IMG/VR virus record: IMGVR_UViG_3300049460_000312
Coordinates: 1-64,000 of that record
Direction: 5' to 3' (one strand)
From: a virus
Length of the DNA stretch: 64,000 nt
This document shows positions 6,977 to 9,215 of this stretch, piece after piece. Under the pieces are notes generated by a model, which had not been told where the DNA came from, searched no databases, and saw only the letters and a list, made by a program, of their open reading frames with translations. Numbering within the stretch: the first letter of the stretch is position 1; every line of letters starts with the position of its first letter. A program made the translations under genes and the position numbers.

Positions 6977-7210
6977 TCAGAAGAAGCCGCAATTCTGAGT
7001 TTTGTCGAGCAATGACACAGCATCTTCGACGAGAAGCTCGGGATGCAGCTGATATGCAATCACCAAATGACGAATGTGGCGTTCAGTAGTCTCTTCGTCC
7101 CAGTGAGGTGCTGATGGAAAGCGCGCCATCACTATCCGTTTGGCCAGTTTCTCGAACTCTTCGTACGGAAACTGAACTGGTCTGAACGGCACCGACTTAG
7201 GGGAGCTCAT
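6977..7210 (-). CDS. hypothetical protein (77 aa)
   Basis: I use the ATG at 7210 (MSSPKSVPFRPVQFPYEEF), which overlaps the stop of the secreted binding protein by 14 bases; the longer reading to 7312 would lie mostly inside that gene. Soluble and slightly acidic, with a helical middle (EKLAKRIVMARF, EETTERHIRHLVIAY). It is the last gene of the membrane/TAXI operon and ends at the hairpin 6946-6975. Unknown function. Confidence 0.72.
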   Translation of the reverse strand: MSSPKSVPFRPVQFPYEEFEKLAKRIVMARFPSAPHWDEETTERHIRHLVIAYQLHPELLVEDAVSLLDKTQNCGFF

Positions 7211-8126
7211 ACCAAGCCCAGCCGCCGTGGTTCGAAGCGTCGACTTCTTGCCACTTCGGATGCGTGCCCGTCTTGTCCTGGATATTGCCGAGCTTCGCGT
7301 CGAAACATGCACGCATGTTCTTCAGCTTGCCGATCATTTCCTGCGAACGGTAGACACGCGTCACGAGCAACGCTTGCGTCGCTACCGACTGCACCCCCGA
7401 GGCGTTCAGATTCTGATACGAGAGCTTCGCGGGGAAGTACAGCTTCGAGGCCGACAGCTTGGTCACGAGGTCTTGCGGAATCGGCAGAATCTTGAATGCA
7501 GGCGGGAGCGCCTTGACCAGACCATGCGGGGCACCGCCAACGACGAGGATCGCATCGAGGTCACCCGAGAGCAGTTTCGTCTTGAGCGTTTCATTGTCCG
7601 CCACCGGCAGCACTTTGAAACCGAGTCCCGAGTTCGCTGCCACGACATTGGCCGAAGCAATCGAGCCACCCACGGCGCCGACGTTACGACCCTTCAGATC
7701 AGCGAGCGTATTGAACGTTACCGCAGTGCCACCGACATTGAAACCGGCCACCGAGAGGCCGCCTTCCTTCTTGACGTCAGCGCGGGCAATGAAGTGCAGT
7801 TCTTCCGGATGGAGCGCGATCAGCGTCTTGATATTGGCGACCTTCGAGGCGTCGACACGGCGTTCGAATTCGAGCATGTCCGATTGCACGATCGCAGCAT
7901 TCACCTGATTGCCGATCAGCAGCGTCTTGTTGTCGATGCCGCCCTTCGTTTCGCGTTCGACCCAGTCGCCGTTGCCGCACATCTGGTTGAGTTCGCCGAA
8001 CATCACGCTGTACGTCGAGCCGCCTTTCTTGTCACCCGTGGCGACGATGATCTTCTCCTGCGCGACGGCATTCAAGCAGATTGCCACAGCGATCATCGCC
8101 AGGATGGATTTGAACAGATTTTTCAC
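7197..8126 (-). CDS. TAXI-type (TRAP transporter) periplasmic solute-binding protein
   Basis: 309 aa from a GTG at 8126 with GGA upstream. Residues 1-22 form a Sec signal peptide (basic MKNLFK, hydrophobic core, AVA before QEK), so the protein should be exported. The mature part follows the TAXI family in order: IIVATGDKKGGSTY, the GGIDNKTLL...AAIVQSDM segment, LIALHPEELHFIARAD, DLKGRNVGAVGGS and GDLDAILVVGGAPHGLV. Such proteins bind small organic acids and deliver them to a TRAP permease; no permease is encoded here. It is preceded by two membrane-protein genes in one operon. A secreted binding protein is unexpected in a phage. It may feed a host permease, scavenge a signal, or modify the envelope. 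Family call firm, role open. Confidence 0.88.
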   Translation of the reverse strand: MKNLFKSILAMIAVAICLNAVAQEKIIVATGDKKGGSTYSVMFGELNQMCGNGDWVERETKGGIDNKTLLIGNQVNAAIVQSDMLEFERRVDASKVANIKTLIALHPEELHFIARADVKKEGGLSVAGFNVGGTAVTFNTLADLKGRNVGAVGGSIASANVVAANSGLGFKVLPVADNETLKTKLLSGDLDAILVVGGAPHGLVKALPPAFKILPIPQDLVTKLSASKLYFPAKLSYQNLNASGVQSVATQALLVTRVYRSQEMIGKLKNMRACFDAKLGNIQDKTGTHPKWQEVDASNHGGWAWYELP

Positions 8127-8156
8127 TTCTTTTTCCTTCGAGTTATGGTGAGGTAA

Positions 8157-8315
8157 TTACAGCTTGAAATTCGAACTGCTGCCCGACTCGCTCGACGGCT
8201 GAGCTTCGGTTGCTGCAGGTGCAGCGTCCGTCGGCGCTGGTGACTTGTTGGTCACGAAGTACAGGGCGCCGAGGATGACGAACATCGCGACACCACCAAT
8301 GATACTGGCTTTCAT
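8157..8315 (-). CDS. small single-span membrane protein (52 aa)
   Basis: The ATG at 8315 overlaps the stop of the upstream 250-aa gene as ATGA, and GGAG precedes it. Residues 4-21 are hydrophobic (SIIGGVAMFVILGALYFV), followed by a flexible tail rich in Ala, Pro and Ser (residues 25-48). A short N-terminal anchor with a soluble Pro/Ala/Ser tail is typical of tethers or small transporter accessories. It lies 31 bases ahead of the TAXI-type gene and is clearly in its operon. No family known to me. Confidence 0.8.
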   Translation of the reverse strand: MKASIIGGVAMFVILGALYFVTNKSPAPTDAAPAATEAQPSSESGSSSNFKL

Positions 8316-9064
8316 GCGAGCTCCTTCACGGGTTCGAGAATACTGCCCAATTGCACACGGCCGTCCGGGGTGTACGTGACCTGGTGTGTCGACGTCGACG
8401 TTTTGATCTGTTCCTTCGCGTACGACTCATCGGTGAGCGCCATGCGCAGATGCGCCAGCGACTGGGCGTGCTCGCGATCGATCTTGTCGAAGGCGATCGA
8501 TTCCTTGAACTTGGCCATCACGTCACTGCCCGAGTTCAGTGCCTTGCCGGTTGCGTTACCCAGCTGCGCCAGCTCGTACTTGGCGATGTACTTGTCGACG
8601 TTGCGGCTGAACGCTGCATGCTTCTCGCGGGAGTCCTTGAACTGGTCGACACGGAATACGAGCAGCGCTTCGTATTCTTTCAGCGTCTGCATCGATTCTT
8701 CGGCTTCTTCCGGATACTGCTTGACGAGTTTCTTCGTCTTCTGACTGAAGAGTTCCACGGCGGCGACCTGTTGTTCCAGCATGCCACGTGCATCTTCCAG
8801 TGCTTGTGCCCGTTCCTGACGCTGGGCGATCAGGGTGGCGCAGGGATCACGCTCCACGACTTCCTTCACAGCCTTGTACTTCAGGTTCGTGAGCCACGTG
8901 GAAAAGGCTGGCTGCAAAGCCAGGGCGACACTGCCAACAACAAAGGCAGCGATCAGGCCAATCAACCCTTGAATGACCAGAAAGATCGTGGGGGCAACCA
9001 CAACCGCAACTCCTCCAGCGATCCCGACCTGTATCAGTCGTTTAAATCTTTGTTTTTTGTCCAT
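8312..9064 (-). CDS. membrane-anchored coiled-coil protein (250 aa)
   Basis: Starts ATG at 9064 (MDKKQRFKRLIQ). Two adjacent hydrophobic spans at about residues 12-31 and 32-55 (a hairpin into the membrane) are followed by a long charged helical region, about residues 75-165, with heptad-like spacing (QERAQALEDARGMLEQQVAAVELFSQKTKKLV), and a C-terminal tail. It is the first gene of the operon with the 52-aa membrane protein and the secreted TAXI-type protein. The layout suggests a small envelope complex, with this protein as cytoplasmic or membrane scaffold. Superinfection exclusion or lysis control are alternatives. Confidence 0.82.
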   Translation of the reverse strand: MDKKQRFKRLIQVGIAGGVAVVVAPTIFLVIQGLIGLIAAFVVGSVALALQPAFSTWLTNLKYKAVKEVVERDPCATLIAQRQERAQALEDARGMLEQQVAAVELFSQKTKKLVKQYPEEAEESMQTLKEYEALLVFRVDQFKDSREKHAAFSRNVDKYIAKYELAQLGNATGKALNSGSDVMAKFKESIAFDKIDREHAQSLAHLRMALTDESYAKEQIKTSTSTHQVTYTPDGRVQLGSILEPVKELA

Positions 9065-9151: not shown

Positions 9152-9215
9152 GAGAAGGTGCTGGCCGAAGCCAGCGCGACTCGGCACGGAGGAGTAGTGT
9201 GCCTTATCCCTTCTC
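9152..9215 (-). terminator. three-way-junction terminator with T-run
   Basis: The outer stem GAGAAGG/CCTTCTC encloses two inner hairpins, GCTGGC-CGAA-GCCAGC and GGCAC/GTGCC. On the minus strand it is followed by TTTTTTTGCC. Unusually elaborate for an intrinsic terminator; it ends the unit of the zinc-ribbon gene at 9231-9596. Confidence 0.75.

Follow-up and report, generated by a model that had tools for sequence, protein, structure and literature searches.

A TAXI-type binding protein encoded with two membrane proteins in large phages: a probable non-transport module

A periplasmic binding protein is generally taken to be part of a transport system, which raises the question of what purpose a phage would have for one. 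The question arose at a locus in the first 64,000 nucleotides (henceforth referred to as the window) of a 283,373-base virus, IMG/VR record IMGVR_UViG_3300049460_000312. An initial annotation, made from the sequence alone, had described a two-span membrane protein with a coiled coil, a 52-residue single-span protein and a binding protein. All three genes are present as listed in Table 1, with the spans assigned by hydropathy. The remark that no phage system of such composition had been described agrees with the literature, in which none was found within an incomplete coverage. The main new result is a family of coiled-coil membrane proteins, defined by sequence comparison, that lies beside solute-binding proteins (SBPs) of two Pfam families, and the three-gene set is probably a non-transport module.

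Table 1 Features of the locus (positions in the window).
Feature	Position	Strand	Basis or remark
250-aa membrane/coiled-coil protein gene	8312-9064	minus	ORF list, PHROG 27316, hydropathy, AF2
52-aa single-span protein gene	8157-8315	minus	PHROG 37009, hydropathy
309-aa TAXI-type binding protein gene	7197-8126	minus	PF16868, PHROG 6856, structure profiles
77-aa ORF	6977-7210	minus	overlaps TAXI stop codon
ATGA start/stop overlap (250-aa gene stop, 52-aa gene ATG)	8312-8315	minus	
Terminator-like hairpin between upstream gene and three-gene set	9160-9175	minus	consensus scan, weak

Gene order and its recurrence among phages

The ATGA overlap of the first two genes is also present in an RP12-like contig, in phage Motura and at a bacterial locus (L112). 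The TAXI gene has a GTG start codon with AAGGA ahead of it. The terminator-like hairpin upstream points to a separate transcript start, and the three-gene set is probably transcribed from its own start. The 77-aa gene, which the initial annotation had coupled to the set, does overlap the TAXI stop codon but has no place in the conserved set. Searches of PHROGs, Pfam and NCBIfam gave no match, no homologue was detected in the syntenic loci, including the RP12-like neighbourhood, and the gene was dropped as a module component. Antisense to the TAXI gene runs a 309-aa open frame (window 7227-8156, plus strand), probably a by-product of codon bias.

Synteny in other phages had been named as a check on the initial annotation, and the order does recur. 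The same three genes were found in the same order in five further lineages: an RP12-like viral contig of 279,845 bases (L006), Achromobacter phage Motura (L001), Vibrio phages phiTY18 and Va1 (L002 and L008), the group of K406, K354 and K408 (L003), and RYC (L007). Products of the phage loci measure 243-252, 44-56 and 305-321 aa for the 250-aa, 52-aa and TAXI genes, respectively; the small gene, which lacks annotation in Va1, keeps its place in all six lineages. The TAXI proteins of the Vibrio phages are the most distant, with 22-25% identity to that of the window. Because the gene order is kept in six phage lineages with TAXI proteins as low as 22% identical, it is far beyond what chance would produce. 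The two groups of phage 250-aa proteins are homologous by hhalign (E 1.5e-9), as are the TAXI proteins of both groups (4.8e-23). Each record recovered from the phage collection through either large gene carries both, with the exception of a faecal fragment of 7.5 kb that gave a weak TAXI match. Between the window and the RP12-like contig the TAXI gene is the best-conserved gene of the region, with 78% identity compared to 32-64% for the others. Given this identity and a dN of 0.17 against a dS of 1.0, the TAXI protein is, as judged from this pair of sequences, under purifying selection.

Wider searches added few relatives. A nucleotide search against phages gave no match, IMG/VR scans with the Vibrio-type TAXI and 250-aa alignments returned no relatives, the other IMG/VR scans found relatives only in the RP12-like contig and Motura, and a genome scan with three Burkholderiales-phage TAXI proteins returned none. 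A link to the phage nucleus was considered and dropped, since the set occurs also in Vibrio phages, one of which has a T4-like clamp loader annotated nearby.

The neighbourhoods differ among phages. In the RP12-like contig, the two genes right after the TAXI gene (L006:6993-8518) encode an ABC-type SBP closest to WtpA and a permease closest to WtpB/ModB, and no confident ATPase was found in that genome. The window lacks the pair and has the 77-aa gene in its place. In Motura the set is followed (L001:9959-12784) by genes for homospermidine synthase and glutathionylspermidine synthase, polyamine enzymes that are unusual for a phage; metabolic genes adjoin the set in RYC as well. Two permease matches, in records of 329 and 379 kb for Acinetobacter phage MD-2021a, were set aside, in our judgement, as probable host sequence. 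ABC-ATPase matches in three phages did not reach the cut-off and resemble generic P-loops.

The binding protein and the case for transport

The assignment of the 309-aa protein to the TAXI family, already made in the initial annotation, was borne out by three comparisons. Its score against PF16868 (NMT1_3) is 31 bits, above the Pfam gathering score of 27, and it matches PHROG 6856 at 1e-67. A profile of the six phage TAXI proteins matched the solved TAXI structures 4ddd (6e-16), 8s4j (5e-14) and 1us4 (1.6e-13). The score against NCBIfam TIGR02122 (TRAP_TAXI), 51.7 bits with an E of 5.6e-14, is below the curated cut-off of 84.35, and the protein is a clear, if diverged, homologue. The N-terminus carries a signal-peptide-like segment with an n-h-c pattern, as judged by hydropathy only. 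Foldseek matched the structure model to SBP folds; the model is of low confidence (mean pLDDT 52), so these matches support the SBP fold only.

The residues expected to contact a ligand are largely retained. In VcGluP, L-glutamate binding depends on Y45 and Q93, whose substitution by Ala causes 213- and 990-fold losses, and on S75 (14-fold loss), while E125, Y200 and M201 are minor contacts (PMC11574862). A profile alignment places Y45, Q93, S75 and E125 at Y39, Q81, G63 and E108 of the window protein; Y200 and M201 correspond, by eye from the motif, to V195 and V196. Y39, Q81 and E108 are invariant across the six phage proteins, which also have two cysteines in common (C50 and C274 in the window). 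Since the Tyr, Gln and Glu positions are kept, the phage protein likely binds a small ligand; the altered domain-2 wall means that this ligand need not be glutamate. The phage proteins thus share with VcGluP (8s4j) and TtGluBP (1us4) the fold family, the signal-peptide-like start and the Tyr/Gln/Glu ligand residues, but differ in the replacement of S75 by Gly and of Y200/M201 by Val/Val in the window, and in having no TRAP permease gene. Their C-terminal part reads HPKW..V...W where TRAP-linked SBPs read PLHPGA..YY.

Bacterial TAXI proteins found with the phage proteins comprised a TRAP-linked group and a group without an annotated adjacent TRAP permease, several records of which are unannotated (henceforth permease-less; L017-L020, L026, L027 and L032-L111). 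When the proteins were placed on an unrooted tree, each of the three sets (phage, TRAP-linked and permease-less) lay on one side of a branch, with supports of 99/97, 100/99 and 94/92, respectively. The HPKW..V...W motif (H289-W292, V295 and W303 in the window) is common to the Burkholderiales-phage and permease-less proteins, reduced in the Vibrio phages and absent from the TRAP-linked group. The phage profile aligns with permease-less proteins over the full length (E 4e-31), whereas against TRAP-linked ones it stops at column 262 and covers 217 columns only (E 4.5e-23).

Genome contigs yielded at least 423 relatives of the permease-less proteins. The best 80 are nearly all from Burkholderiales, and by a crude ORF-level test 65/78 of them had no multi-span ORF in their flanks. 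Most had an upstream single-span neighbour, with a zinc-ribbon-like CxxC in 50/72 at the same crude level. The upstream partner in Burkholderiales consists of a zinc ribbon, a single span, a Pro/Ala linker and a C-terminal C.xALAAL.LC; in Alphaproteobacteria it is a coiled-coil protein whose C-terminus bears a Cys motif. These loci resemble the phage set in the HPKW motif, the lack of an adjacent TRAP permease and the single-span or coiled-coil gene upstream, but their zinc-ribbon/TM or long coiled-coil partners have, as far as tested, no sequence kinship to the phage proteins. No published account of the permease-less TAXI proteins of either group was found in the literature.

A direct search for the TRAP permease DctM (PF06808) gave no match in the six phage genomes, while the positive controls did. 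Lack of a TRAP permease alone cannot exclude transport, since the orphan TAXI protein BP0403 of Bordetella pertussis works with GltS (PMC12344293). Both systems would have a membrane-tethered TAXI protein and no TRAP permease, the tether being proposed in the phage case. BP0403, however, is a lipoprotein with an extra domain encoded beside GltS, while the phages have a separate 52-aa span, a coiled-coil membrane protein and no adjacent GltS.

The transport reading holds that the TAXI protein passes its ligand, an organic or amino acid, on to a permease of the host (TRAP, GltS or ABC type) and that the membrane proteins aid docking. It draws on the retained ligand core, the Bordetella precedent, the WtpA-like SBP and WtpB-like permease directly downstream in the RP12-like contig, and the metabolic genes that neighbour the set in two phages, Motura and RYC. 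The count of TRAP permeases in the phages (0/6), the C-terminal region shared with permease-less and not with TRAP-linked proteins, and the anchoring of the bacterial homologues' SBP to membrane and cell wall (see below) argue against it. Feeding through a TRAP permease, as the initial annotation had suggested, was weakened by the permease-less motif, the absence of DctM from the phage set and the anchored, LysM-bearing SBP of the bacterial module. We consider feeding through a host permease unlikely, and less likely than a sensing function. Interception of an extracellular signal, another early suggestion, is still a candidate.

The membrane proteins and their bacterial counterparts

The 250-aa protein matches PHROG 27316 at 1e-69. 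Its N-terminal hydrophobic stretch (about residues 9-56, from hydropathy only) is long enough for a hairpin and is followed by a long helical hairpin (74-116 and 121-175) and short helices. The AF2 model is mostly helical, with a pLDDT of 80-88 over most of residues 80-170. The protein is proposed to be a membrane-anchored cytoplasmic output or scaffold. The 52-aa protein (PHROG 37009, 8e-18) has, again by hydropathy only, one N-terminal span and a Pro/Ala/Ser-rich tail of 25-30 residues, and is proposed to tether the binding protein.

The helical hairpin model could also suit an envelope scaffold or maintenance role, in which the 250-aa protein would shape or protect the membrane in the manner of BAR or PspA/ESCRT-III proteins and the SBP would have the structural role of a cell-wall tether. 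Weak Snf7 matches on the same stretch of the window and RP12-like proteins, weak arfaptin-BAR matches and the LysM domain of the bacterial partner are in keeping with such a role. A PspA/ESCRT-III identity had been suspected from the order of the helices, but hhalign against E. coli PspA was negative (probability 1.2%) and the best Foldseek E was only 0.16 (Vipp1, 0.99). Conserved ligand residues in the SBP argue further against this role, which we judge decidedly improbable.

Profile searches for the 250-aa family in 369 and 399 genomes (class and phylum sets) gave one strong match each, designated G321 and G676. The G321 contig carries the full trio, consisting of a 261-aa protein, a 48-aa protein with the ATGA overlap and a TAXI protein (Pfam 2.6e-8), among ordinary-looking bacterial genes; its TAXI protein groups with those of phages, on a long branch. 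The 250-aa-type gene of G676 precedes one for a 377-aa protein with an N-terminal span, a Pro/Ala linker, SBP_bac_3 (1.3e-9) and LysM (1e-9). The 250-aa-family gene was found in 39/399 genomes, about a tenth, of one Burkholderiaceae-type bacterial family. The next gene encodes a protein of the same span, linker, SBP_bac_3 and LysM architecture in 36/36 loci examined, which fall into two sequence groups and are kin to each other rather than independent. No published account of this pair was found in the literature.

Alignment of the phage 250-aa protein with the Burkholderiaceae-type family by hhalign (E 3.4e-30 over 210 columns, including the hairpin) makes a solid sequence-based case for homology. 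In these bacteria (L115, L121-L156) the homologous 250-aa protein is followed by a binding protein as in the phages, but SBP_bac_3 and LysM form one chain with the anchor, where the phages have a TAXI protein, a separate 52-aa protein and no LysM. Compared by sequence with the bacterial anchor, and with a control comparison alongside, the 52-aa protein gave no significant match; position and composition suggest that the two may be equivalent. The phage, G321 and 36 bacterial loci together place one coiled-coil membrane family beside an SBP at every locus read, with the SBP drawn from two Pfam families. This suggests that the SBP is exchangeable while tethering and the 250-aa partner are constant. 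The presence of different-family SBPs tethered beside the same coiled-coil membrane protein, with no permease, points to a non-transport use.

The bacterial loci also bear on superinfection exclusion or receptor block, whereby an envelope complex would prevent a second phage from adsorbing or its DNA from entering, with the SBP as sensor or plug. Known exclusion proteins have periplasmic and membrane locations similar to those predicted here, and the set is found in distant lytic phages. In bacteria, however, the homologous pair lies on the chromosome with stable surroundings, PADLOC matched the set to no defence family beyond a weak LeoBC match for the 250-aa protein, and a conserved ligand site would be superfluous. 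Exclusion is accordingly rated improbable.

A possible sensing function

The reading that we prefer, at roughly even chances, is that the three gene products form a single complex in the envelope, in which a tethered periplasmic SBP is coupled to a membrane protein whose helical domain is cytoplasmic, and which serves as a ligand sensor or switch rather than a transporter. The TAXI protein would be exported and bind a small carboxylate or a ligand resembling an amino acid. The 52-aa protein, oriented N-in and C-out, would keep it at the inner membrane and connect it to the 250-aa protein, itself inserted through its hairpin with the coiled coil inside. The 250-aa protein may then change state with ligand occupancy and act on a target of host or phage origin. 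The set would then be the viral version of a module for envelope sensing in bacteria, with which the infecting phage would monitor a nutrient or cell-wall signal or keep that signal fixed.

Support for a sensor comes from the gene order in six phage lineages and G321, the tethered SBPs at 36/36 bacterial loci, the homology of the 250-aa family, the retention of Y39, Q81 and E108, the HPKW motif and full-length profile match to permease-less proteins, the strong constraint on the TAXI gene and the lack of DctM. The kinship of the 36 bacterial loci, the TAXI-GltS transport precedent, the ABC-type SBP and permease downstream in the RP12-like contig, and the non-significant match of the 52-aa protein to the anchor count against it. 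In SBP-coupled receptors such as LuxP-LuxQ and TorT-TorS, a periplasmic binding protein signals across the membrane. The working principle proposed here is similar, but the 250-aa protein is without a kinase or other known output domain.

A bolder and rather doubtful extension is that phages and Burkholderiaceae share a new class of transmembrane signalling module, in which an exchangeable tethered SBP would signal via a dedicated hairpin-anchored coiled-coil protein. If this were true, large phages would use the module to sense a metabolite of the periplasm or a fragment of the cell wall and change how infection proceeds in response. Recurrence of the set in distant large phages would allow periplasmic sensing by phages to be tested with only three genes, and in bacteria the homologous pair provides a genetic system free of phage complications. 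A ChaA-like gene (Ca2+/H+ antiporter-like, by eye; L114:7569-8648 and L120:7243-8331) adjoins both of the first bacterial 250-aa-family loci, on the opposite strand and in different genomes.
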